Shown: in pieces, positions 380 through 14,180 of the stretch
How positions within the stretch are numbered: position 1 is the stretch's first letter
Layout of the letters: every line of letters begins with the position of its first letter
Origin: Methylobacter sp.
Lineage (GTDB): Bacteria; Pseudomonadota; Gammaproteobacteria; Methylococcales; Methylomonadaceae
Assembly: GCA_026399025.1 (NCBI GenBank)
Contig: JAPLRU010000056.1
Span: 1-55,433 of the forward strand
Direction: 5' to 3'
DNA: 55,433 nucleotides
Notes under the pieces: model-generated
What the model saw: only the letters and a program-made list of their open reading frames with translations
What the model was told of the DNA's origin: nothing
Database searches by the model: none
Position numbers and translations under genes: made by a program

Positions 380-979
380 TTATGTGCTATTCGTAGCATG
401 CACTACTGCACACTTTATAGCCTCCATATACTTTTTAAAAGCCTCAATATTTATGATTAGGTCTGAGAATGAGACATCCATTGCACTATCATTGTGATGA
501 ACAATATTGTTTCTTTTTATAACTACTGAATTGACTAACTCTTTGTTGGCATTGAAGCTTGCTTCAGAGGTTAAGTCTACTCCCAATAGTCTATATAACT
601 TAATCGTTTTATAAGGATTAGCAGAAACACTTTCGGATATCTCTTTCTTATCAGCAGGATAGTTAGCCTCTTTAAACTCCAGATCTTTATCTTTTACTTC
701 TTTCGCAACTTTCCAGTATATAAAGTTATGAGGTATTTTCGCGTTTCTTACCCTCTCGTTGACGACTTTGGCATATTCAAAAGCAAGATCCTGTATATAA
801 GCCTCTAAATATGAACATATGTTTATCATATAAGACTTAACAAAGAAATTTACATTATCAGAAAACAGATCATCGGGTTCTTCTGATATTACTCGTTGCT
901 CAGATACTTGAATTATCGAAACCAATAGGTCATAGAGATTTTCATATTTCTCATATAACTCTGCTGCTCTAGCTTGCAT
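380..979 (-). CDS. HEPN-domain protein, predicted RNase partner of a DUF262 protein
   Basis: A 199-residue, mostly helical, AT-rich protein. Near the C-terminus RNNIVHHND fits the HEPN R-x(4-6)-H signature (Arg, four residues, His), which in active HEPN families forms the RNase site. The sequence resembles the MAE_28990 / RiboL-PSP-type HEPN proteins. Its start codon lies inside the 3' end of the upstream DUF262 gene (11-base overlap), so the two are almost certainly translated as one unit. HEPN proteins of this kind usually act as toxins or phage-defence effectors; that role is inferred from family and pairing. Confidence 0.65.
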   Translation of the reverse strand: MQARAAELYEKYENLYDLLVSIIQVSEQRVISEEPDDLFSDNVNFFVKSYMINICSYLEAYIQDLAFEYAKVVNERVRNAKIPHNFIYWKVAKEVKDKDLEFKEANYPADKKEISESVSANPYKTIKLYRLLGVDLTSEASFNANKELVNSVVIKRNNIVHHNDSAMDVSFSDLIINIEAFKKYMEAIKCAVVHATNST

Positions 980-2021
980 TAATCGCAGCCTCCAACAATT
1001 CAGCCCAACTTGCTTTCCTCCTCAAGATTGAGGATTTATTTTGCAACCCCCCTGATAATGTTCTTTTAAAGTCGTCGCTTTGGCAAAGGTTAAGATATGC
1101 TTGCTGAATTTCCGTCTTTTTACTGATAGCGACCTCATAGTCAAGCTGCCCTACACTTAGCATTAACAGGTCATAATGAACTAATCCTTTTCTCTTCTTT
1201 TCCGCAGCAGGATTTGTGAAACTAGCATCACCAAATACGTCGATGCAATTTTGAAGCGCTTTCGTATATTTATCCTTATGGTTATTAATAGATTCCTGAT
1301 TGAGCTGTGACTTGCTCTCCATATAATTATCTAAAAAATCTTTTAAATTTGTATTAAATCCAGATAGCTCAGGGTCATCTAAAAATGCAAAAAATCGAAG
1401 AACTTGCTCTTCTGGCTCAAGGCTATCTCTTTCAACATCGGAATCTTTTGCTAGCCCAAACCGCTTTATAAGTGGATGACTACCCAGTTCGGTTAACAAC
1501 TCATCAAGGCTTCCTGGATAGAGTGCATGCCTAATTTCTTGATCTGATAGCTCAACGGCTCCTTGGTTTAGTCGTGAAAATATTTCTCTAACTAGGCTTT
1601 TTGGATTTTCCTTTCGAAGAATAATGCACCGAATGGTTGTTGACTCTAGCTCGGATTGTAATGAACCAAGTTCTGAAAACTTTTTACCTTCTAATTCTTT
1701 AAAGGTAGTCATCCCTTCTAACGCAAACTCGTCATTGAAGAAGCGAGTAATAGTTGTTAAGCGTTGTACGCCATCAATCACCATGTGTCGCCCGTTTTCA
1801 TCCTCAGCAAGATAACATGATGGCAAAGGAATTCTCATTAGGCATGATTCAATGAACTTTGAAGACCTTACCCAACCATCTTTATCCCATTTGTATTTTC
1901 TCTGGAAATCAGGGTCTAGTTTAAGTTTGGCTGGTTCCGCTTTTATTCTTACCACAAGAGTCTCAAATGGATAATCAATTGGGTATAAATTTAGAGTCTT
2001 ATCTTCAACTGTCTCTGTCAT
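969..2021 (-). CDS. DUF262 (ParB/Srx-like, GmrS-type N-domain) protein
   Basis: 350 residues. The N-terminal half has the DUF262 hallmarks: DPDFQRKYKW (about 37-46), HMVIDGVQRLTTI (the DGQQRL motif, with V for the first Q) and FSRLNQGAVELSDQEIR. DUF262 is the nucleotide-handling domain of GmrSD type IV restriction enzymes. The usual DUF1524 HNH nuclease domain is absent; the C-terminal half is helical and unassigned. The downstream HEPN gene overlaps by 11 bases and could supply the effector. AGAG lies a few bases before the ATG at 2021. Composition is more AT-rich than the housekeeping genes, suggesting transfer. Defence or toxin control is the likely role, by inference. Confidence 0.75.
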   Translation of the reverse strand: MTETVEDKTLNLYPIDYPFETLVVRIKAEPAKLKLDPDFQRKYKWDKDGWVRSSKFIESCLMRIPLPSCYLAEDENGRHMVIDGVQRLTTITRFFNDEFALEGMTTFKELEGKKFSELGSLQSELESTTIRCIILRKENPKSLVREIFSRLNQGAVELSDQEIRHALYPGSLDELLTELGSHPLIKRFGLAKDSDVERDSLEPEEQVLRFFAFLDDPELSGFNTNLKDFLDNYMESKSQLNQESINNHKDKYTKALQNCIDVFGDASFTNPAAEKKRKGLVHYDLLMLSVGQLDYEVAISKKTEIQQAYLNLCQSDDFKRTLSGGLQNKSSILRRKASWAELLEAAINAS

Positions 2022-2199: not shown

Positions 2200-3510
2200 T
2201 TAGATTTTCGGAATCGGATTAGCCGTCAGTTTTCGCCATTGTTCCGTGGTGTCCAGCGGATTTCCAAGCGTTGAGATAAGTTGGTTGACCACGCTATTCA
2301 CATGGGCGTCGAGAGCGGCTTGCGCGCTTTCTTGAGCGGAGGGGCCGTCCTTGCTGCCTTCATACAAGCCGCTGCTTTCTCCGGTGACATCGTCTTGCCA
2401 GAAATAACGGGGCTTACTGACACAGCTATTGCCCATGCAATCGACGAATGGGTTGTACTCTAGCTTCACTTTGCCTTTTCTATCGGCAATTAATTCATTA
2501 TAGGTTTTGACGGCATGGTCATAATAAAGCTGGGCATTGAGCTTAACCGAAATTGCGAAAGACGATTCTTCGGGATTCGGGTGATCCGGATCGACCAAGG
2601 CCTGTTCCTGTAACAAGGCCAAATGAACCCCGGCCGCTATCATGAACACACTGAATCCCTCTTTGGCGTATCGGGTCAGCATGAGGGTTTGCACGGCCTC
2701 GGTATAGAGCAGGTTGACAAAGGGCGTGACGTCGTTAAACAGGTCTCTTCGGGAGGTTGACGGGTTGGTCACTTCTTTTCTCGGCGTGTAGGAGTTTTTC
2801 ACCCAAGCCTGAGTACCGTTGATCCGTCCGTTGATTTCGTCGATGGTGTTTGCGGTCAAGGCTTGGCCGACGATCTTTTTTATTTCATCGTAAACTTGAT
2901 CGAAATAGCTGGGAACGCCCGGCGGGAAGATGGAATCGAAGATCAGCGCGCCGATTTTGCCGCCTATGCCGGCGACCAATCCGCTACCTAATTGCTTGGC
3001 TATATCGGTAGCGGCAGAATTCGCTACGTTTCTGAGCGGTGCATGAACCGCTTGGTCGAGAGTTGCTTGCGGCAGCAGTTCCAAATTGCCGTTGTGCAAT
3101 CGTAAATGGCTAAACAGGTAGTAATGCTCGGAATAATTGGTTTTTCGTCTCAACACCGGCGTATCGGCAGGCGCATCCCCGAAAGGCTCGATCAAATAGG
3201 AAAAAAAGTCTTCTTCAATAATCTCGCCCTCAAGCAGAGGAAATTCCCTGGCAAGGGTCATTACTGCGCATCTTTTTCTGGCTTCTATTTCGACTGTTTG
3301 TTTCGGCGTGAGCTCATAAAAATCGCTAGCTTCGGCGATGGGGAGCGGCTTATCGGAAAGATTTTCGATAACTCCGGTGGATAAACTATCGAAATCCTGA
3401 TCCGATAGGGCTGCATTGGCAGGCAATAGGTTTTGATAGGAGGCTTGCAGCTTCTGTTCTACGTATTGCTTTTTAGAATCGGAAAAGATCTTGTGAAATA
3501 CTATTTGCAT
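2200..3510 (-). CDS. Protein with a Cry delta-endotoxin domain I-like region
   Basis: 436 residues from the ATG at 3510. A longer form from TTG at 3594 adds 28 residues, but neither start has a strong ribosome binding site. Residues about 175-345 look like the helical pore-forming N-domain of insecticidal delta-endotoxins: a Gly-rich hydrophobic helix ending in IFDSIFPP, an amphipathic stretch (YFDQVYDEIKKIVGQAL), a hydrophobic helix with FSVFMIAAGVHLALLQEQAL (Cry proteins have an analogous YAQAANLHLLLL) and a final helix YYDHAVKTYNELIADRKG (compare ADHCVKWYN in Cry). The 170 residues before are unassigned. Only about 90 residues follow, so Cry receptor-binding domains II and III are missing. 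No signal peptide. Function unknown; a toxin-like pore former is an inference by eye. Confidence 0.5.
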   Translation of the reverse strand: MQIVFHKIFSDSKKQYVEQKLQASYQNLLPANAALSDQDFDSLSTGVIENLSDKPLPIAEASDFYELTPKQTVEIEARKRCAVMTLAREFPLLEGEIIEEDFFSYLIEPFGDAPADTPVLRRKTNYSEHYYLFSHLRLHNGNLELLPQATLDQAVHAPLRNVANSAATDIAKQLGSGLVAGIGGKIGALIFDSIFPPGVPSYFDQVYDEIKKIVGQALTANTIDEINGRINGTQAWVKNSYTPRKEVTNPSTSRRDLFNDVTPFVNLLYTEAVQTLMLTRYAKEGFSVFMIAAGVHLALLQEQALVDPDHPNPEESSFAISVKLNAQLYYDHAVKTYNELIADRKGKVKLEYNPFVDCMGNSCVSKPRYFWQDDVTGESSGLYEGSKDGPSAQESAQAALDAHVNSVVNQLISTLGNPLDTTEQWRKLTANPIPKI

Positions 3511-4177
3511 GTCGGTTTTCTTTTTAGAGGTGAATCGCCCGCGAGTTCGGGCGCTGGAGAGGGCTATTTTCAAGTTATAGACGACGAAGGTCAATGATGT
3601 GAGTAGGATTTTATTGCGCCGGCTCTCAAGTCATAAGCATCTACACAAGTTCCGGCCCTCTCTCCTTTGAGAAAAAAGGTTGAGATAAGTAAGGTGTAAG
3701 CAGTTGATTTTATTCTCCTCACCCCAACCCTCTCCAGCAGGAGAGGGCGCTTATCGACTTATAACTCCTTGTATTTATAATACAAAAAGTTGTGTAGATG
3801 GTTATGCTCTCAAGCGGGAGCCTCATCGTTATACATACATCTACCGGGGGTTGGCGACAATCAGTCTGTAGGGCGCGCACGGCACGCGCTACATTGCATT
3901 CCGGTATCCCTGCCGGAATGAGGGTGTTCCGCAGATACTTGTGTATAAAGACGAGCGCCGGAGCGTGGGAACGATGTCGAATAGACTGGATAAATTACAG
4001 TAACTTATCATTAATAGCAGGTAAGCATTCACCACGACGGCACGCAGTTTTATTGTCTTTGCGCCTTCTTGGTGAATAAATATTTTTAAGCGCCTGTAGA
4101 TATAATGATTTTTAAGGAAAAAATTATAATGCGCTGTGTGCGAGAGTTTGATGTAAATTCGAATTAACCGAGGTTTT
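3511..4177. repeat. Gene-free stretch with several palindromic repeats
   Basis: No supported gene. It contains the palindrome CCCTCTCCAGCAGGAGAGGG (3728-3747), which recurs at 25207 and 43651. A half-copy of the CGCCGGAGCGTGGGAACGATG element lies near 3955-3975. A degenerate hairpin of the CACCACGAAGGCACGAAG family spans about 4028-4076 (arms ATTCACCACGACGGCACG and CGCCTTCTTGGTGAAT). The promoter of the downstream receptor gene should lie in the AT-rich last 100 bases, but no clear boxes stand out. Confidence 0.55.
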
Positions 4178-6790
4178 ATGAGCATAAATAAAAACAAATT
4201 GTTGCCTTTATTGGGGCTGTTTCTATCATTATCGCCCTCACTGGTCCAAGCCCATACCGGCAGCCACTTAATAAGCGGCTGGTATAACGGCTTCAATCAT
4301 CCTTTGCACGGATGGGATCATCTCCTGACTATGCTGGCAGTCGGTGTTTGGGCCGCGCAATTGGGTGGCCGAGCTGTTTGGCAGCTTCCGTTGGCGTTCG
4401 TCGGCGTGATGAGTATCGGGGGGCTGGTCGGTGTGATCGGCGTGACCGTACCCGGCGTCGAAATGATGATTCTGCTTTCCGTGGTTGTTTTCGGTTTTTT
4501 GGTTATCAGCAGTATTCGTTTTCAAGCTACGGTCAGTGTGCTTATCGTGGTTTTTTTTGCCTTTTTTCATGGTTACGCGCACGGTCAGGAAATGCCCGCT
4601 TCGGCCAGTCTTTTGTCATTCGCGCTGGGATTTATGCTGGCAACGATGCTGTTGCACGGTGTGGGTATTCTGGCTGCGCGTCTGGCTTTGTTGGTCTTTG
4701 CCTGTTTGCTCGGCAACAGCGTCTATGCTCAGCCATCTGCCGACGCTGCAAGCGGCAAAGCTAAAACCAAAGCGAAGGACAAGGAACCGGTGGTGCTTTC
4801 GGAAATGCTTGTTAGCCAACGCGCCGATTCACAAGTCGGTATTGCCGATAGCGCCTCTCAAGGCAATGTCGGGCAGGAGCAATTGAAATATCGCCCGATC
4901 AGCCGTCCCGGCGAAATCCTCGAAACCGTACCCGGCCTGATCGCTTCGCAGCACAGTGGCGAAGGCAAGGCGAACCAGTATTATTTGCGCGGCTTTAATC
5001 TCGATCACGGTACGGACTTTTTGACGCAGATAGACGGTGTGCCGGTCAACCAAGTCTCCAACGCGCACGGGCAAGGCTGGACCGATACAAACTTTCTGAT
5101 TCCCGAGTTAATAAAGACGCTCCGCTATCAAAAAGGCAACTATTATGCGGAAAACGGGGATTTTTCAAGCACCGGTGCGGCCAATATCCAATACTTCAAC
5201 GAGCTGCCGGGTACTATGGCCAAGTTTACCGGCGGCAGTTTCGATTATTATCGGGGGCTGTCCACCGGATCGCGCAAATTGGGCGACGGTAACCTGCTTT
5301 ATGGCGGAGAAGTCGTAAATAACGGCGGTCCGTGGACAGTGAGCAATGATTATCGTAAATATAACGGTGTGCTGCGTTATAGCAAAGAGCACGACGATTC
5401 CGGCTGGAGCGTCACTGCGATGGCCTATAAAGCCGACTGGAAAGCAACCGATCAAATTCCCAAGCGCGCCGTAGATTCCGGTTTGATTGGCCGGTTCGGG
5501 AACATCGACCCGACCGATGGCGGCAACAGCCAGCGTTACAGTCTGACCGCCGAATGGCACCGGCAGAACGCAGCCGGGGCTACCCAGTTAATGGCGTATG
5601 GGCTTTATACTGATATGCATTTATACTCGAATTTCACTTATTTCCTGAATGATCCGATTCGGGGCGATCAGTTTGCGCAGCCAGACAAACGCTGGGTATC
5701 CGGTCTTAAGGCGAGCCATAGTTTTTTTCATCAACTGGGCGGCGCCGACTCCGAAACTACGCTTGGGCTGCAAATCCGTAACGATAATATCCATAACGGT
5801 CTGTTGTTAACGCAAGCCCAACAGCGTTACTTCACAGTACGTGAAGATGATGTGTGGATGACCGGTATCAGCCCTTATGCGGAAAACAAAACCCATTGGA
5901 ATGACTGGTTGCGCACCCGTCTCGGTGTGCGTTTTGATGGATTTCGTTTTAATGTGGCGAACAGCAATATTCCCGATAACAACGGTAACACTACGGACGG
6001 TCTTGTCAGTCCCAAGTTCGGCATAGTGTTTGGGCCTTGGGCGGATACTGAATATTATCTCAACGGCGGCCTAGGGTTTCACAGTAACGATGCTCGTGGC
6101 GTGAATATCCGGGTTGACCCGGCTACCGGGAAATCGGTTGATGTTGACGGTAATCCGATCAAACCGGCCGTTCCGCTTGCACGTACTTACGGTGCGGAAG
6201 TCGGTGTACGCAGCAACTGGATTCAGGGTTTGCAAAGCACGTTGTCGCTATGGTGGCTGGATATTGATTCCGAACTGTTGTTCGTAGGCGATGCAGGCAC
6301 GACTGAAGCCGGCCGTCCAAGCAGACGGTACGGAGTAGAGTGGGCAAATTACTATTCGCTTACCGATTGGTTGACGTTCGATGCTGATTTCAGTTATTCC
6401 AAGTCGCGTTTTCGCGGTGATGCTCCCGAAGGTAATTATATTCCGGGCTCAATCGAAACCGTCGCCGCCTCGGGCGTTACGTTCCATGACCTGTTCGGCG
6501 GCTTTTTCGGCGGGCCGCGCCTGCGTTACTTCGGTCCCCGGTCACTGATCGAGGATAACAGTGTCCGCTCGAAGCCGACCGCCATGTTATCGGCAATGCT
6601 GGGCTACGCGTTCAATAAGAACTGGACAGTACAAGCGGAGATGTTCAATCTCCTTAATAGAAAGGACAGTGCCATCGACTACTATTACAGGTCCCGACTG
6701 CCCGGCGAAGACGCAGCCGGTATCGATGATATACACTTGCATCCGGTTGAACCAGTCAGTTTTCGTATGAGTCTAACTGCGTCATTTTAA
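4178..6790 (+). CDS. HupE/UreJ-like permease domain fused to a TonB-dependent receptor
   Basis: 870 residues, good start (GAGGT before the ATG). Residues 1-25 look like a signal peptide ending LVQA. Residues 26-165 match the HupE/UreJ nickel/cobalt permease family: HPLHGWDH (41-48, the H-x3-G-x-D-H metal motif) and FHGYAHGQE (130-138), with about five hydrophobic segments. The expected last permease helix is replaced by RLALLVFACLLGN followed by SVYA-Q (184/185), which reads like a second signal peptide. A TonB box-like EPVVLSEMLV (203-212), a plug domain (about 225-335, with LETVPGL and YYLRGFN) and a 22-strand-type barrel follow, ending in a terminal Phe as outer-membrane proteins do. A permease and a receptor in one chain must end in different membranes, so internal processing or a recent gene fusion is likely. 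Substrate is probably a metal chelate (Ni/Co by the HupE link), inferred. Confidence 0.8.
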   Translation: MSINKNKLLPLLGLFLSLSPSLVQAHTGSHLISGWYNGFNHPLHGWDHLLTMLAVGVWAAQLGGRAVWQLPLAFVGVMSIGGLVGVIGVTVPGVEMMILLSVVVFGFLVISSIRFQATVSVLIVVFFAFFHGYAHGQEMPASASLLSFALGFMLATMLLHGVGILAARLALLVFACLLGNSVYAQPSADAASGKAKTKAKDKEPVVLSEMLVSQRADSQVGIADSASQGNVGQEQLKYRPISRPGEILETVPGLIASQHSGEGKANQYYLRGFNLDHGTDFLTQIDGVPVNQVSNAHGQGWTDTNFLIPELIKTLRYQKGNYYAENGDFSSTGAANIQYFNELPGTMAKFTGGSFDYYRGLSTGSRKLGDGNLLYGGEVVNNGGPWTVSNDYRKYNGVLRYSKEHDDSGWSVTAMAYKADWKATDQIPKRAVDSGLIGRFGNIDPTDGGNSQRYSLTAEWHRQNAAGATQLMAYGLYTDMHLYSNFTYFLNDPIRGDQFAQPDKRWVSGLKASHSFFHQLGGADSETTLGLQIRNDNIHNGLLLTQAQQRYFTVREDDVWMTGISPYAENKTHWNDWLRTRLGVRFDGFRFNVANSNIPDNNGNTTDGLVSPKFGIVFGPWADTEYYLNGGLGFHSNDARGVNIRVDPATGKSVDVDGNPIKPAVPLARTYGAEVGVRSNWIQGLQSTLSLWWLDIDSELLFVGDAGTTEAGRPSRRYGVEWANYYSLTDWLTFDADFSYSKSRFRGDAPEGNYIPGSIETVAASGVTFHDLFGGFFGGPRLRYFGPRSLIEDNSVRSKPTAMLSAMLGYAFNKNWTVQAEMFNLLNRKDSAIDYYYRSRLPGEDAAGIDDIHLHPVEPVSFRMSLTASF

Positions 6791-6826
6791 CGGAACAAAG
6801 GATTCTATTAGGGGGGTATAATAAAA

Positions 6827-6854
6827 TTGCCCACAAATAGGGTGGGACTATAAT
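6827..6854 (+). promoter_or_regulatory. Possible sigma70 promoter before the PepSY gene
   Basis: TTGCCC (6827-6832), a 16-base spacer and a perfect TATAAT (6849-6854). The predicted start site would fall on the Shine-Dalgarno of the next gene, so it is doubtful. A second TATAAT lies at 6817-6822 but lacks a good -35. Confidence 0.25.
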
Positions 6855-6871
6855 TTTTTAGGAGAGCTTTC

Positions 6872-7399
6872 ATGAACACAATCCAAAAAATCCTGATCGC
6901 GAACATTGCATTTGCAGTCTGTGCGCCTGCAATGGCCGATATTAAAATGCCGGAAACCAAGAGCAGCATGGAAACCTGTTTGAAAGCGGCTTTAGGAAAA
7001 CGCGATGGCGAAGTTGTCAAACTTGAGTTCAAAGACGAGCGTGGCGCTCCCACTTATGAATTCGAAATTCTAGGCAAAGACGGCAAGAGCTGGGAGCTTG
7101 AATGCGATGCCAACAAGGGCAAAATAACCGAGGAAGAACAGGAAGTAGAAAATGGTGACGATTCCTTATTCAAGGAAAAAACCAAAATAAGCTTGGAGCA
7201 AGCCAAGGAAATCGCGCTAAAAGCCCATGCGGGCGAAGTTGTAGAAGTCGAGTATGAAATCGAGTCCGATGGTAGCGCTTCCTACGAGTTCGACATCAAA
7301 ACTGCCGACAAGGGGGAAATTAAGTTGGAAGTGGATGCTGCTAGCGGAAAAATCGTCGAAGACAACGAGAAAGAAATCTACCAAATAGGCAAGGAATAA
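6872..7399 (+). CDS. Secreted protein with two PepSY domains
   Basis: 175 residues after a strong ribosome binding site (AGGAGAG, 6 bases before the ATG). A Sec signal peptide ends at AMA-D (about residue 22). Two homologous PepSY units follow, about 30-90 and 105-170, each with the pattern of an alpha-helix ([37 protein letters not shown]), then YEFEI or YEFDI, a charged turn and a C-terminal GKI. PepSY domains are small periplasmic modules found in protease inhibitors and in metal and redox proteins. The acidic composition fits a periplasmic protein. It lies 80 bases after the receptor gene and may be co-expressed, but its exact role cannot be read from sequence. Confidence 0.8.
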
Positions 7400-7712
7400 G
7401 CCGAACGAATTATAAACATGTCGCCATTTATGATGGATCCAAACCGTTTCTCATCGGATTTTGAGCTTCATAGTTGGCGGCATATTTATTGGTAGTCGTT
7501 AAGGCTCATCTGACAGGTAAAACACTGGACTTGACCTAACAGATTCTAAAACGAGTCTCAGCTTTATCTGGCATTGACTGTCTCAGTTCGACCCAAACCG
7601 GACTGTCGAGGTGAGGCACCCTACCAAGCGAAAAACCCTATTAATATTGATGGATTAATTATTGTATTTGCACCACTATATACCTTAATAGGTTTTAGTT
7701 TGAGGATAAGCG
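7400..7712. other. Gene-free stretch carrying the left flank of an inverted repeat pair
   Basis: No gene seen. It holds the left copy (7570-7610) of the repeat that recurs inverted at 10506-10546. The last 100 bases are AT-rich and should contain the promoter of the hydrolase gene. Confidence 0.5.
7570..7610 (+). repeat. Left arm of ~40-bp inverted repeat flanking the AT-rich module
   Basis: GCATTGACTGTCTCAGTTCG and the following bases to GGACTGTCGAG match the reverse complement of 10506-10546 at about 34 of 39 positions. Each arm also contains a small internal dyad (CGGTT...AACCG). The pair encloses exactly two genes. Confidence 0.65.
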
Positions 7713-8951
7713 ATGAGTGATAAATTAGGTGGTAAATGGGAACGCGAGCCTAGTAGTGATACAGTGGTGGTCTTTGTTCATGGTATAAATTCAAGCAGCA
7801 CAGAATGTTGGACAAATGCCTCCACCGGTTCATATTGGCCTACTCTTCTAAAAGAAGAGCCGGAAATCGAATCAGTAGGTATTTATGTTTATTCCTATGA
7901 AACAGGTTTTGCCAGCGGTTCGTATGATTTAGACAATGTCGTCCAAAATCTTAAAAGTAGTTTATTTAAACTAGACAACGTCGCCGAATGCAAAAACATC
8001 ATTTTCGTTTGCCATAGTATGGGAGGCATTATTGCTCGCAAGCTTGTATTACGGGAACAACTTGAATTTTTTCCACAATATAAACTTGGATTTTTTCTTT
8101 TGGCTTCTCCATCCTTGGGTTCGGATTATGCAAACCATCTAATTATAAAACTATTTGGTAATGCACAAGCGCTTGACTTGCGTTCAAGTGCAGACAACCA
8201 TTGGCTGAATGATCTTGATAACCAGTTTTTTAATCTTACTAAGAAACTTCCAGAAGAAATATATGGGGTAGAATTGATAGAAGATAAATTTATTCGCGTT
8301 AATCGCTTAGAGTTTTTAAATCCCATCTTAAATAGGATATTCAATCCAATAGTTACTACGTTATCAGGACACAGATATTGGGAAGAGCCTGAAAAAGTTT
8401 CCGAGTCTGACCATATTTCTATTGCTAAACCAGAGAATAAAGAAGCAACTCAGCATAGGCTTTTAATAAAATTCATAATCAATAAAATACACCCCATTCC
8501 GACTCCTAATTTAGGTGGTATCTCTCGATTAATTACTTTCGAGTATAGAGAACCCTTGGTTGTTTTTGAACAACTATCAACAGTAAAAAATATAAAATTT
8601 CCACCGCTTTGGTATAGCAGCTCAGAGGATGAAGACCAGCACCAACCAGTTACGAACCGCTTTAGAGTTGATATAAAAGGGACAAATCAGAGCTGGTTTA
8701 TTCCTACTATTCATATTGCCTGGGAAAAACCTTGTTTGCCAGAACAGGATAGCTTAGAAACACGAATGGATAATTTAAAAGATTATAAGGAACTATATAA
8801 CCTATTACAGGATATAAAAAAAATTGGCGGAGATATCACTTGGTATGGAATAAGCCAAGATAAAATGCACAAAGCAAGAACCCCTTTAAAAAGGGAAGCA
8901 AAAAAAGAAGAGGAATTAGGGGAAAAGCCCTGTAATGAATTTTTTGTTTAA
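7713..8951 (+). CDS. Alpha/beta-hydrolase (SERAC1/DUF676-like lipase fold)
   Basis: 412 residues, preceded by GAGGATAAGCG. The first 250 residues carry hydrolase landmarks: VVVFVHGIN (oxyanion strand, 18-26), IIFVCHSMGGIIARKLV (nucleophile elbow, Ser102, with Cys in place of the usual first Gly of GxSxG) and SDHISIAKP with His234 as the likely catalytic His. This combination is typical of PGAP1/SERAC1-like serine hydrolases, which often sit in bacterial conflict systems. The C-terminal 150 residues have no recognised domain and end in a Lys/Glu-rich tail. No signal peptide, so it is cytoplasmic. It is much more AT-rich than its neighbours and paired with an unknown gene inside an inverted repeat. 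A defence role is possible but unproven. Confidence 0.75.
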   Translation: MSDKLGGKWEREPSSDTVVVFVHGINSSSTECWTNASTGSYWPTLLKEEPEIESVGIYVYSYETGFASGSYDLDNVVQNLKSSLFKLDNVAECKNIIFVCHSMGGIIARKLVLREQLEFFPQYKLGFFLLASPSLGSDYANHLIIKLFGNAQALDLRSSADNHWLNDLDNQFFNLTKKLPEEIYGVELIEDKFIRVNRLEFLNPILNRIFNPIVTTLSGHRYWEEPEKVSESDHISIAKPENKEATQHRLLIKFIINKIHPIPTPNLGGISRLITFEYREPLVVFEQLSTVKNIKFPPLWYSSSEDEDQHQPVTNRFRVDIKGTNQSWFIPTIHIAWEKPCLPEQDSLETRMDNLKDYKELYNLLQDIKKIGGDITWYGISQDKMHKARTPLKREAKKEEELGEKPCNEFFV

Positions 8952-9070
8952 AAGGGAAAAGCAAACTTTCGCTTACTTTTCCCGCTTAATTGTCTAACCC
9001 ATAAACTCACATGATGGGTTCAAGGATCCGGTTTTGCTTATAGTTAGCTATAAAATAAGCGCCGCCTCTA

Positions 9071-9112
9071 CGAAAAAAACCTTAGGGAGTTACAGCCCCA
9101 GGAGGTTTTTCG
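9071..9112 (+). terminator. Hairpin between the two genes of the AT-rich module
   Basis: CGAAAAAAACCTTAGGG (9071-9087) pairs with CCCCAGGAGGTTTTTCG (9096-9112). The A-tract/T-tract shape resembles a bidirectional intrinsic terminator, about 120 bases after the hydrolase stop. If active it would separate the two genes into different transcripts. Confidence 0.4.
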
Positions 9113-9196
9113 TTGTAACTTTCTCCAAAGAGAAGATGAATAATAATGCAATTCTGCTTATTATGAAAGAAAAAACATATCATTGGAATAATTAGT

Positions 9197-10423
9197 ATGG
9201 AAATTAAACAATTGCGTTTTTCTTGTATATGGACTGTTAGTTTGTTAAAGATAAAAGAATTTGAGGTTGGTGAAGGAGTCTATAGGCAAGTATTTAAAGA
9301 CACACTAGAACGGCAATCTGGTGTCTGGTCACCCCCATGGAATACTATAAAAGATTCAACATGGGAAGATAGTCTTAATCAGTCATTTTTTTGGAAAAAA
9401 TATCTTGAACTAGATAATCCAAAAATACGCTCTAAAAAAGATTATGCTTCGATTCTATTTGAAGAGAGATCTCGCTCTAAAATTTGGTCACATTTATTGC
9501 CTCTAAAATATAATATTCCAAAATTAACAATAGAGACCAAAAGCCAGCACATCAAGTTTGAAAGCTTTCGTTACCCCTATGGCATCGGAATAGTTGCAAC
9601 ACTCTACATAAAAATAAAACCAAAAACTTCACTAGAAGACACTATAAATTATGCTATAAACTCAAGGTATGATGAGGTATATAAAATTAATTATGAAAAT
9701 GATCAATCGGATACAGGGAACCTTCAGTTATTAGCAGAAAAACTATTTGATCGCTTATCCCTACAACTTTTACCAAAACAATCGATTGATACAACAGGCC
9801 ATAATATATGTTTACCTAAAGACCCATTCATTATTGCTACTATTATCAATGCGAAGAGTACTGAAAGCGAAGAGTTCTCTGACTTATCAAAAAGCTATCC
9901 GAATTGTTGGGATAATTTGGTTGCTGGTCTATGTGATTGGAATAAACAATGGAAAGATAACAATTCAATCGGAAAAATCATTCCAAATTTAAAACATGAT
10001 CCGAGTAAGAATTTTGTCAACTCTATAATTGGAACAGAAAGAAGTAGATTGATTTTTTTTCCAAAATATTTTACCGAAAATTTAGGCAAACCAACAAAAA
10101 CACCCAAGCACTACCCATTAGGTAATTATCATAGACATTTATTATTTCTAAGCTTACAAACAGAAATGTTAATGGGAATTTTAGAAGATTATATTGACAT
10201 ACCACAACCAAGCACTCATCAGAAGTACATTGCAAAACGAGCATTAGTATTAATCAAGTTAATATTAAGAAGTTCAAAAACAAAAAAGTCTGGAGTTTTC
10301 CAGTCATGGAGCGCTTTTAAGCGAATAGAACTATCTTATAAAATAATCGAAGACGCAAATTTCAAGCTGCGTGCTAAAAAATTTGATATAGCGAAAATCA
10401 TAGTTCCTAGCCCACCGGTTTAG
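9197..10423 (+). CDS. Unknown 408-residue protein paired with the hydrolase
   Basis: I do not recognise a family. The protein is soluble, without a signal peptide or membrane helix, rich in Lys, Ile, Asn and aromatic residues, and encoded by very AT-rich DNA. Notable stretches are WTVSLLKIKEFEVGEG at the start, a strand-rich middle (PYGIGIVATLYIKIKP) and a helical C-terminal third beginning HRHLLFLSLQTEMLMGILEDY. GGAATAATTAGT precedes the ATG. It follows the hydrolase by 245 bases on the same strand and both genes sit between the same inverted repeats, so they probably travel and act together. Confidence 0.6.
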   Translation: MEIKQLRFSCIWTVSLLKIKEFEVGEGVYRQVFKDTLERQSGVWSPPWNTIKDSTWEDSLNQSFFWKKYLELDNPKIRSKKDYASILFEERSRSKIWSHLLPLKYNIPKLTIETKSQHIKFESFRYPYGIGIVATLYIKIKPKTSLEDTINYAINSRYDEVYKINYENDQSDTGNLQLLAEKLFDRLSLQLLPKQSIDTTGHNICLPKDPFIIATIINAKSTESEEFSDLSKSYPNCWDNLVAGLCDWNKQWKDNNSIGKIIPNLKHDPSKNFVNSIIGTERSRLIFFPKYFTENLGKPTKTPKHYPLGNYHRHLLFLSLQTEMLMGILEDYIDIPQPSTHQKYIAKRALVLIKLILRSSKTKKSGVFQSWSAFKRIELSYKIIEDANFKLRAKKFDIAKIIVPSPPV

Positions 10424-10505
10424 TTATCATAATTCGTAACACTAACTTAACTACAAAACAGTCAATAAAAAATGTTGAATCAGGATGAAACATGGCCAAA
10501 TTTAG

Positions 10506-10546
10506 CTGATAGTCCGGTTTTGGCCGAACCGAGACAGTCAATGTCA
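10506..10546 (-). repeat. Right arm of ~40-bp inverted repeat flanking the AT-rich module
   Basis: TAGTCCGGTTTTGGCCGAAC and the bases to GACAGTCAATGTC are the inverted counterpart of 7570-7610. The arm lies 80 bases past the stop of the unknown gene. Confidence 0.65.
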
Positions 10547-10607
10547 GGATCAATTCAAACTAATATTTGACACCGTCAGCTCAAGTGCAGAGTTTTACAT
10601 CCGACAG

Positions 10608-11324
10608 TCACTTATTTTTTAACCCTAATGCAGTTTCTACCCCGCTAACGTTTTTGAAACTCGCCCCTTCCAGATTAGCATTGTGAAAATCCGCTTCAGA
10701 GACATCGGCCCCGTTCAATTTTGCCCCTGACAAATCCGCCCACTGAAAACGAGCTTTAGATAAGTTGGCGTTTTGCAGTTTCGCATATGGCATCACGGCA
10801 TGGATAAGATTAGCGCCGCTTAAATCGACGCCATTGAGTACGGCATTGTTCATTTCAACTCGCGCCGGCGCCATGCCTTGATTGGCCATATCAGCGCCAA
10901 GATTGGCATTGTTCAATTTGGCATTAGTCAGGTTGACGTTGTTCAATAACCCGATGATACGGCTTCCAGTCAGGTTGGCATCGGTCAAATCGGAGCTATC
11001 CAATACCACGGCATACAAGCCGGCGCCGGATAAATCGGCTCTATTCAACATAGCTTTACGGATCTGGGCTCGATTGAGATTGGCTCCCATTAGTTTCGTT
11101 TCACTGAGATTGCATCCGTCCAGGTTTGCTGAAAATAAATCTGCGCCTTTAAAATCGATTCCTGATAAATCCAAACCGGAAAGGTCTTTATTGTGGAATT
11201 TTGGTTGATTATTTCCAGCGCCGGCTATGGTGGCTATAACTTGCTCGCGCGAGAGTTCAGCCGCCTCACAGGGTAAAGTAACCGCGTTGATCAAGACCAA
11301 ACTGTAAAATAAATAATATCTCAT
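10608..11324 (-). CDS. Secreted pentapeptide-repeat protein
   Basis: 238 residues from the ATG at 11324, chosen because it puts a Sec signal peptide (MRYYLFYSLVLINAVTLPCEAAE) at the N-terminus and has GAGAG upstream; a longer frame to 11393 is unlikely. After about residue 45, consecutive five-residue repeats of the A(D/N)LxG type run almost to the end (for example LSGANLIHAVM and LSGAKLNGADVSEADFHNAN), predicting a right-handed quadrilateral beta-helix. Periplasmic or surface location follows from the signal peptide. Cytoplasmic members mimic DNA to protect gyrase, but that cannot apply to an exported one. Function unknown. Confidence 0.85.
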   Translation of the reverse strand: MRYYLFYSLVLINAVTLPCEAAELSREQVIATIAGAGNNQPKFHNKDLSGLDLSGIDFKGADLFSANLDGCNLSETKLMGANLNRAQIRKAMLNRADLSGAGLYAVVLDSSDLTDANLTGSRIIGLLNNVNLTNAKLNNANLGADMANQGMAPARVEMNNAVLNGVDLSGANLIHAVMPYAKLQNANLSKARFQWADLSGAKLNGADVSEADFHNANLEGASFKNVSGVETALGLKNK

Positions 11325-11708
11325 AAAGACTCTCGGCAATAATTGAATGTTTTTTAGATTTGGCAGTGTGGATGAAGAGAGTTTCCATTGCAATCCTACT
11401 TCGTAACAAAAGGAAAAAGTGAATATAGGTAAGACATAGGATAAACAAATCCTATAATTTTTGGTTGATGCCGAATTAAAACGACGGGAGGCATTGGTAT
11501 CTTTAGAGGCAACGATAACCTTTCCGCTAAAGACGTGACGTTCAGGTTCTATGACGGCTAGGCGGCGAATTCAGGCAGTTCAGTGTTCGGGCGTGGGTAT
11601 ATTGATAGCCGTTTCCATATTCCACCATCGAAATATTGGGCATAAACCGGCATACCCACATTTTTTGAAGCTATGTGCCTATGAGGAAAAGTGCTTGCCC
11701 CCATCCCT
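11325..11708. other. Gene-free stretch, possibly degraded coding DNA
   Basis: No intact gene. The part from about 11465 to 11570 reads as broken coding sequence with in-frame stops, without a recognisable parent. No strong repeat or terminator is evident. Confidence 0.35.
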
Positions 11709-14180
11709 CTATTTACGCTGCAACCTCAAAGAATTCAGTACTACCGAAATAGAACTTAAGGCCATCGCACCCGATGCAATCATCGGGTTAAGCTTGCCCA
11801 TCGCCGCCACCGGAATGGCAACCGTGTTGTAAGCCAAGGCCCAGAACAGGTTTTGCTTGATGACGGTCAAGGTGGCTCCGCTTAATTCCATGACATCGGC
11901 GACCTTACTGATGTCGCCGCTGACCAAGGTAAGATCCGCTGTTTCGATCGCGACATCGGTACCCGTCCCGATAGCAAAACTGACATCGGCCGCCGCCAGA
12001 GCGGGGGCATCGTTAATGCCGTCGCCGATCATGCCTACTGTATTACCTTGAGCTTGCAAGTCGCGGACAATTTCGAGTTTTCGATCCGGTTTAGCAAAGG
12101 CAACGACTATATCGATGCCTACCTGATCGGCAATATAACGAGCGGTTTGTTCGGTATCGCCGGTGACCATTATCGGGTTGATGCCAAGTTTGCGCAGTCT
12201 TTCGATCGCTTTAGCGGCGTTTGCTCTGGGCCGGTCGGCGATGCCGAACAGTGCCGCGGCTTTGCCGTCTACGCTGACATAAACCGGAGTTTTGCCTTGC
12301 TCGGTTAAGGGGACGGCGCGTTTGCTCAAGGTTTTTAAATCAATGCCCGAGTCTTCAAGCCAGGAGCGGTTACCGATCAGAACGTCGCAACCATCGACGC
12401 GCGCATGAATGCCGTGACCTGGAACATTGGTAAATGCTTCGACCGTAACCGGGCTGACATGGCGTGTCTGGGCATAAGCGACTATTGTTTTCGCCAAAAA
12501 ATGCTCGGAGCCGGATTCAGCCGCTGCGGCCAAGGTTAATATGCGCTGCTCGCTGTTTTTAGCAACGGCAATAAAATCGGTAACTTGCGGCTTGCCTTCG
12601 GTAATGGTTCCGGTTTTATCGAATAGGATTGTAGTCAACTTCGATGCCTGCTCCAGGCTTTCCCCGTTACGGATGTAAACCCCGCGCCGCGCCGCTTGCC
12701 CGGTGCCGACCATGGTCGCCATCGGTGTCGCCAAGCCGAGCGAACAGGGGCAGGCGATCAGCAGCACCGTTACCGCATTACTGAAAGCGCTTCGAAAACC
12801 CAGTCCAAGCGCGAGCCAAGCCAGGAATGTCGCTGATGATACCGCTATCACGGAAGGCACAAACACAGCGGAAATACGATCCACGGTTTTTTGGATGGGT
12901 AATTTGGACGACTGGGCCTGGTCCACCATGTGAATAATGTTGGCCAGTACAGTATCGGTACCGACCGCGGTGACGCGCATTTTTAGGACGCCATTGCCGT
13001 TAATGCAGCCGCCCATCAAGCGATGGCCATGTTCCTTGACAACAGGCAGGCTTTCGCCGGTCACCATTGACTCATCGACAGTAGAAAGCCCGTCCATCAC
13101 GATACCGTCAGTCGGAATTTTTTCGCCGGGGCGAATCAGCAAGATGTCATTAACGTGAACCTGGTCGATGCTGATCAGGACTTTTTTGTTGCCGTGCATG
13201 ACGGTGGCGTTTTGCGGTTGCAAATCAACCAACGAGCGAATCGCTTCATGGGCTTTGCCTTTGGCTTTTTCCTCCAGGTAGCGGCCGATCAGGACGAAAG
13301 TAATGATCCCGGTCGCGGAATCGAAGTACTGTCCCCGTTTACCGGACAGTAGGGATGCTACGCTATAACCATAGGACGCCGCCACTCCAATAGCAATCAG
13401 GCTGTCCATATTGGTGGCGCGTTGCCGAGCCAGTTTTATCGCTTTTTCAAAGAACGGTCGTCCCGCCCAAAGCACGATAGGCGTGGCGAGTAAATGCTGC
13501 GCCCAGTGCCAAAATCGGGAGGAGGGCGCGACCATGCCGATAACCATAACGGGCAAGCTTAGTGTTGCCGCTATAAGAGCGCGCCGCCTGGCGTCAACCA
13601 AGCGCTGCTGTTCGCGCGCGATCATCATTTGACGTTGAGCCAAGCTGTCCATATTCTGCGCCGGATAGCCCATGTTGCCGATCAACAGGCAGACATTTTC
13701 TTTAGTCGTTCGACCGGTCACCGTAGCGGTTTCTGTCGCGTAATTGACGTTTGCCGAGGAAATACGCGGATCCCGCTTCAACAGCATTTCGATCAACAGG
13801 GCGCAGGACACGCAACTCATGCCGTCTATGCTGAGGTTGAATTCCTGCTCGGCGAGGTGCTCATCGGCTTCGGCAGGCATTAATTGCGCGGTGTTATTTG
13901 CAGCCGTGGATTTTTTTTTGCCCAGATTCGCCAGCAACGTATCCAGAACAGTGAGCAGCTTGGTTTTCGGCAATTTATCGGGATCAAAATGGATGACTAT
14001 GGAAGCAATATCGGGAACCGTGCGCACGTGTTCGATGCCGTCCCGCTTTTGCAGCAAAATTCCCAGAATACAGGCGCGCTCGGGATCTTTGTGCAGAATC
14101 GGCGCAATAATACGCACTCGCCGGTTCAATGTATGAACTACTTTACCGTGGGTTAGGTTATCGATGTGCGAAGATTTCAT
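11709..14180 (-). CDS. copA: Copper-transporting P1B-type ATPase with HMA_2-like N-domain
   Basis: 823 residues, ATP-driven Cu(I) export from the cytoplasm. Order: an HMA_2-like domain without the CxxC (about 12-85), a heavy-metal-associated domain with GMSCVSC (Cys123, Cys126), membrane helices, actuator TGES (374-377), CPC (477-479) in the ion path, DKTGT (521-525, phospho-Asp521), MVTGD (671-675) and GDGIND (719-724). YN in helix 7 (AYNTV) and MALSS in helix 8 match the Cu(I) subgroup. Odd point: the nucleotide-binding HP motif reads SEHFLAK (His560-Phe561), losing the normally conserved Pro. It is last in a minus-strand operon behind two small membrane proteins and divergent from a TauE-cupredoxin gene. 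Confidence 0.93.

Follow-up and report, generated by a model that had tools for sequence, protein, structure and literature searches.

In the passages of PMC3913671 that deal with them, mobile insertion cassettes (MICs) carry cargo between imperfect inverted repeats, lack a transposase gene and usually lie within a target duplication. Here we describe an element of this type in a Methylobacter sp. DNA stretch of 55,433 nucleotides (contig JAPLRU010000056.1, referred to below as the window). At positions 7517-10599, a gene for an alpha/beta hydrolase (P0001) and a gene for a 408-residue protein (P0002) are enclosed by two inverted arms. This segment is very probably a non-autonomous, MIC-like transposon with unlike B and A ends, a target duplication, family ends between which cargo can be replaced, and a cargo of hydrolase plus orphan protein. 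Like mic-qnrD and MIC231 of Bacillus cereus, it is bracketed by inverted repeats; the two main open reading frames (ORFs) between its arms match no transposase family. A candidate target duplication adjoins the arms. The element differs from MICs in that its arms measure about 85-91 bp (24 bp in mic-qnrD) and the candidate duplication 7-8 bp (2 bp), the ends are polarised into A and B types, facing arms in the family stand up to 14 kb and once 22 kb apart, and cargo appears to be replaced at fixed sites. In addition, a cognate insertion sequence with the same ends was not found when the ORF lists of 54 fetched regions and of the window were read by eye. With polarised ends and an apparent turnover of cargo at fixed sites, this family of transposase-less cassettes forms a variant within the MIC kind.

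Tn7-like transposons, in the parts of PMC8649781 drawn on here, have arrays of binding sites at their ends and diverse cargo including defence genes, and related elements carry unrelated cargo. The present family recalls them in its two end types, in a motif that recurs within the arms and may mark binding sites, and in cargo that is diverse and mostly unrelated between related elements, but the core genes TnsA/B/C are absent from the window cassette, which contains two unrelated ORFs, and only two binding-like sites were detected per end. Also in common are TG...CA termini, which Tn7-like elements have together with left and right ends unlike each other; the target duplication of Tn7 is 5 bp rather than the 7-8 bp seen here. 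Integron gene cassettes, which have single attC sites, share with this arm family an exchangeable cargo; unlike them, the family has paired inverted ends without a consistent fold, and no integrase lies between the arms of the window element. As for the cargo, P0001 resembles the DUF676 / SERAC1-PGAP1-like serine hydrolases. LmuA of Lamassu is a hydrolase effector with an SMC-like LmuB partner, whereas P0001 gives a weak, partial PADLOC match to LmuA (E=5.5e-4), P0002 gives none, and no LmuB/SMC partner was seen.

The arms of the window element were found as 91-nt sequences, identical at 67 of 91 positions, at 7517-7607 and, inverted, at 10508-10598, and the family model described below recognises both. 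The left arm (+ strand) is a B-type end starting with GTAAAAC, the family's first T being here the G at 7516; the right arm (10508-10599, - strand) is an A-type end that reads TGTAAAAC inward from 10599. Directly outside them are the candidate copies of the target duplication, TCTGACAG at 7509-7516 and TCCGACAG at 10600-10607, which agree at 7 of 8 positions. The wider flanks CATCTGACAG/CATCCGACAG match at 9 of 10 positions, but this match overlaps the end of the right arm. An earlier note on this DNA had placed the island at 7570-10546, between inverted repeats of about 40 bp matching at 34 of 39 positions. The core match is correct (from 7569 onward); the repeats had been drawn too short, and 7517-10599 fits better. 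The AT-rich island and its two genes were borne out, with P0001 (412 residues) at 7713-8951 and P0002 (408 residues) at 9197-10423, both on the + strand. The GC content is 0.32-0.37 across kilobase intervals from 7501 to 10500, and higher in the intervals on either side, at 0.46-0.51 over 6001-7500 and 0.44-0.52 over 10501-12500; the element as a whole has 0.35 and the whole window 0.48. A terminator-like scan of the 245-nt gap between the genes (8952-9196) gave zero sites on the same strand and one on the - strand. No tRNA or Rfam family was found within the window. The note had also considered that the repeats might be abundant and dispersed, which we reject for the host genome (5.23 Mb in 138 contigs). 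A 141-base left-arm query found only two places in it at E<=0.001, the right arm giving E=3.7e-10, and the repeats are therefore neither due to chance nor abundant there. Scanning with the 18-nt core pattern yielded 2 exact and 10 three-mismatch sites, that is 12 as against 8 control matches.

Arms of the same family are present in other genomes. As DNA, the left arm has matches in 17 of 151 genomes at E<=0.001; a sequence-only family model of 86 positions, built from 36 aligned arms, matches 31 of 101 related genomes at E<=0.01 and, at class level, 7 of 369 at E<=0.001 (own genome included each time). Five of the six other class-level genomes match roughly the outer 55-66 model positions only. 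Arm matches in plasmid records (3) and phage records (2) were all partial and weak, and two exact patterns found no arm in viral contigs. No published description of these ends was found in the searches made of the open-licence literature, among them a text search for five end sequences, which led only to papers unrelated by title. The 54 regions mentioned above were fetched in sets of 14, 20 and 20; loci and genomes are cited by L and G numbers. As a separate observation, five loci in other gammaproteobacterial families (L088-L092; G154, G497, G333, G404 and G303) have single arm-like sequences confined to the outer 55-66 positions, and several of them show, as judged by eye, a second CTGACA/CAGACA-like motif further inward.

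The orientation of the arms is that expected of transposon ends. Counts of arm pairs rest on 150 arms among the matches listed. Of adjacent arms 0.25-15 kb apart, 24 of 29 pairs face each other, and within 25 kb 25 of 30 pairs are inward-facing (binomial p=3e-11 against 0.25). The fetched regions alone give 22 of 26, in a biased set in which some regions were chosen as pairs. When 70 arms were clustered, two end types were obtained, A (22) and B (48), and 17 of 18 pairs consist of one A and one B end; one pair in this count (L095/L096) was added by hand, and the exception, L101, has two B ends. The window element has its B end on the left and its A end on the right. A second ATCTGACA-like site (at least 6 of 8 positions) was present in 48 of 60 arms, compared with 8% of shuffled controls, and the spacing between the two sites was exactly 32 bp in 41 of 60, for a motif chosen after looking; in the A consensus the best direct repeat has a spacing of 38. 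Such doubled sites would resemble two transposase-binding sites per end. The tail AGCnGnC has a density of 12.3 per kb over the initial 60 nt in a set of 27 B arms and of 7.3 in A arms, the background being 4.7. An attC-like folding of the ends was considered and rejected, since six of eight inner-arm segments fold within one standard deviation of shuffled sequences; the other two fold better (L048, z -4.2; L042, z -2.3).

The sequences next to the arms bear signs of insertion. In 18 pairs with both termini defined, the match of the flanking 7-8 bp summed to 11.9, compared with 9.5 for shuffled partners (p=5e-5), small shifts being allowed in both real and shuffled pairs. A clear duplication (at least 0.85) was seen in five of the 18, the window among them; others are AATAATGC on both sides of L041 and ATTTATT at L038. 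Across different insertion sites the flanking sequences are diverse. One site, downstream of pqqE, could be followed through the genus. All 23 genus genomes have a PqqE match, which in 22 is near full length and at least 89% identical, and arms lie about 110-120 bp after pqqE in three of these 22 loci (G018, G006 and G012). In ten armless loci, the DNA that flanks the G018 cassette outside its A end stands downstream of pqqE; its distance from the gene is 9-172 bp in nine loci and 514 bp in the tenth. The remaining nine, host genome included, have other sequence in the stretch compared (one of only 253 bp). The sequence is ...GGTGAATACT-cassette-AATAACTTATCC where the site is filled and ...GGTGAATAATTTATCC where it is empty (G007), which would fit a slightly altered duplication of about 8 bp.

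The DNA between the arms, in contrast to the DNA outside, is seldom shared. Comparison of 78 distinct arms gave nine groups with an orthologous outer site. In 11 of 13 comparisons between orthologous sites, the 1.2 kb inside the arm showed no similarity while the outer DNA was 76-95% identical. With three pairs that an offset filter had dropped (L043/L098 and L098/L112 at the MarR site, which share cargo, and L006/L038, which does not), the inner DNA was unrelated in 12 of 16. Because inner DNA is unrelated at orthologous sites, the comparison supports replacement of cargo between retained ends. When the pqqE loci of G018 and G006 were compared by blastn, similarity spanned flank and arm and broke off, at both arms, no more than about 10 bp from the inner edge, with zero matches between the cargos. 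The cassette at this place in G018 contains a pmo/amo-like operon (PF02461, PF04744, PF04896; L042 6504-9346, G018:C2), where G006 and G012 hold other DNA. One cargo stretch, 94% identical over 1,059 bp and starting about 140 bp inward of the arm, is common to G009 and G011, where the arms stand at unrelated sites. B arms from one site resemble each other more closely than do B arms from different sites (0.886 vs 0.846; label permutations, 2 of 560, or 8 of 560 with only the inner half), and for this reason the ends appear to be inherited and the cargo replaced. A first profile pointed to an exchange exactly at the inner arm edge, which a larger baseline did not bear out.

The kinds of cargo were sampled with 30 proteins for Pfam (25 matched) and 10 for PADLOC (7 matched), hand-picked from cassettes and single-arm loci and hence no unbiased census. 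Restriction or Abi-type genes are represented among these picks: on one side there are a type IIG-like methyltransferase (L106), two GmrSD_N proteins (L031), AbiTii (L049), AbiJ_NTD5/Abi_C (L054, where the left arm is weak), an IrrE/RmrA-like protein with DUF4411 (L102), HD-CE with an ATPase (L111) and PIN_8 (L041). On the other side are the pmo/amo-like operon (L042), MetE (L105), a biotin-carboxylase/carboxyltransferase protein (L110), an ArsP permease (L099), efflux proteins (L103) and a PAS-GGDEF-EAL protein (L051). No gene or transposase common to the cassettes was recognised in the ORF lists.

Taken together, the above results suggest the following course of events. Two polarised ends of about 85-91 bp from the TGTAAAAC family, with B as the left end and A as the right, bracket the cargo, and the unit would have been inserted by a transposase supplied in trans. 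Insertion would have left the 7-8 bp duplication that is evident at family level and has a candidate, matching at 7 of 8 positions, in the window copy. The window element itself is probably old and no longer moving, because its arms are only 74% alike and it is present in a single copy. In this family, as the comparisons support, the ends can act as long-lived sockets, in which the outer chromosome and the arms persist and the cargo is replaced. Homologous recombination between the arms of different elements would be the simplest route; the nested or doubled ends seen in L033, L038, L054, L098 and L101 could offer intermediates for it. A more far-reaching form of this proposal is that the A/B arms are chromosomal sockets of a transposon-derived exchange platform, which underwent one transposition entry followed by cargo swaps across species and sites. 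We regard this form as possible and put it forward tentatively.

Several observations weigh against the interpretation as a MIC-like transposon, and some of them speak for particular alternatives. About 100 of the 150 arms among the matches listed have no facing partner within 25 kb, many contigs being short, and 13 of the 18 pairs lack a clear target duplication. Both facts, together with the persistence of arms at orthologous sites across species, would fit conserved regulatory or terminator sequences that flank operons and are inherited with the flanking genes. Such sequences would hardly be expected to face inward as one A and one B end, to lie within duplications scoring above shuffled controls or to be missing from an otherwise matching pqqE site in 10 of 22 loci, and most inner-arm segments fold no better than shuffles; it seems very improbable that the arms are of this nature. 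Cargo was common, not replaced, in 2 of the 13 comparisons (4 of 16 with the filtered pairs), and the comparisons come partly from the same site and are hence not independent. The point of exchange in the arm was not located either, the joint estimate being position 32 with broad single intervals. Since some transposons are site-specific, differing cargos at one site might instead stem from independent insertions into the same target, and the imprecise exchange point favours this. The greater likeness of same-site B arms, outer flanks that align up to the arm, and the diversity of flanks at other sites make independent insertion unlikely. An autonomous relative or a mobilising transposase was likewise not found in the ORF lists read by eye, and an empty site for the window element itself was not found with either of its neighbours.

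Enzymes encoded inside some cassettes were also considered as movers. A RAYT-like ORF is present in 5 fetched loci at two sites, and IS91-like ORFs in L049, L104 and overlapping L047/L111; we presume these labels to be right, and Pfam gave zero support for them on L112:3903-4436. An IS91-like ORF lies in an identical 2,461-bp block shared by two cassettes of one genome (G049; L049 6810-9270 and L104 2170-4630). In L104 the block starts 6 bp inside the arm, as might be expected if a RAYT-type Y1 or an IS91-type enzyme moved the cassettes; in L049 it stands about 200 bp from the arm and so looks like a separate insertion. Such ORFs were not seen in the other listed cassettes, and to our knowledge enzymes of these types would not be expected to leave target duplications. 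Movement by either of them is accordingly rated as hardly probable at all. An element that we take to be IS1182-like starts right at the inner arm edge in L046 (about 1976), and was rejected as the mover since it has its own repeats (L095, 20 bp; L046, 21 nt). In L045 (about 110) a similar start at the inner arm edge was noted by eye.

The cargo of the window element was then compared with known proteins. P0001 matches PF05057 (E=1.2e-8, 35.2 bits vs a cut-off of 20.3) and other alpha/beta-hydrolase models, and Ser102, within CHSMGG, and His234, both of which the earlier note had read correctly, are invariant in six sequences (P0001 and five plasmid homologues); it belongs to DUF676. Matches to P0001 were found in 19 of 72,556 plasmid records; the similarity to the plasmid homologues stops near residue 255-282, and their annotated neighbours differ between records, one record being unannotated. 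At E<=1e-10, 4 of 398 phylum genomes, own included, have relatives, and in two of the other three an AAA_35 ATPase is the next gene. No solved structure matched the P0001 sequence (E<=0.01), and pattern scans of genome contigs gave no relatives. P0002, described earlier as of no recognisable family, kept that description: zero Pfam families were above cut-off, PADLOC, NCBIfam and PHROGs gave no match, and no solved structure matched its sequence at E<=1. A relative of about 23-24% identity was found in one of 150 other related genomes (G036:C38), without an adjacent hydrolase, the contig beginning 0.9 kb away. Among 397 other phylum genomes there was only one match, of 46 residues with two stops (E=0.006). 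Zero matches were obtained in 72,556 plasmid and 50,697 phage records and none in pattern scans of genome and viral contigs, and no P0002 relative lies near the hydrolase relatives examined (5 plasmid and 3 genome loci).

These data bear on the suggestion of the earlier note that hydrolase and partner form a conflict system which moves as a unit. The repeats do bound a unit of mobile type, with inward, polarised arms, target duplications and an empty site of a sister cassette; a conserved two-gene system did not emerge. Nor was the expected co-occurrence seen: no second genome with both genes was found and the one relative of P0002 found stands without a hydrolase beside it, a weak test as P0002 is very rare. 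The gap of 245 nt also argues against a dedicated pair. In its favour are the common strand and AT-rich composition, the ATPase next to hydrolase relatives, which amounts to an effector-plus-partner layout, and the faint resemblance of P0001 to LmuA. On balance, a dedicated two-gene conflict system is doubtful. Among the sister cassettes sampled, genes of restriction or abortive-infection type occur as well as metabolic ones. An anti-phage or other conflict role of the window pair is plausible, with the hydrolase probably as effector and P0002 as what may be its sensor or regulator. Against this it should be said that the defence role is drawn from analogy, and that a single-sequence structure model of P0002 (mean pLDDT 31) was unusable.

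Other features of the window were recorded. The left neighbour of the element has its best relative in another family, with no shared DNA beyond it. At 4178-7399 (+), a single ORF fuses a HupE/UreJ domain to a TonB-dependent receptor; for the PepSY gene next to it the best relative, 76% identical, is in another family of the order, which may mean horizontal transfer. The right neighbour has 40-45% matches across most of the genus, and since such matches also occur elsewhere in the host genome they are probably to a paralogue. On the - strand, 2200-3594 encodes a 464-residue protein with a delta-endotoxin N-terminal domain above the Pfam cut-off (E=6.1e-7). Another candidate conflict pair occupies an AT-rich stretch at 380-2021 (-), where a GmrSD_N (DUF262) protein (969-2021, E=1.9e-24) overlaps the start of a RiboL-PSP-HEPN protein (380-979, E=4.7e-18).

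The cassette interpretation offers a reason why two AT-rich genes stand together at this place, and it warns against calling them an obligate system. With the A/B ends as sequence markers, accessory cassettes of this bacterial family can be delimited, and it becomes testable how cassettes without a transposase swap cargo yet keep their ends. If the exchange platform proposed above is real, defence-type genes and a pmo/amo-like operon would be exchanged among probably methane-oxidising Gammaproteobacteria, in a traffic resembling that of integrons although the unit itself contains no integrase, and the gene pair of the window would be one such exchanged cargo.

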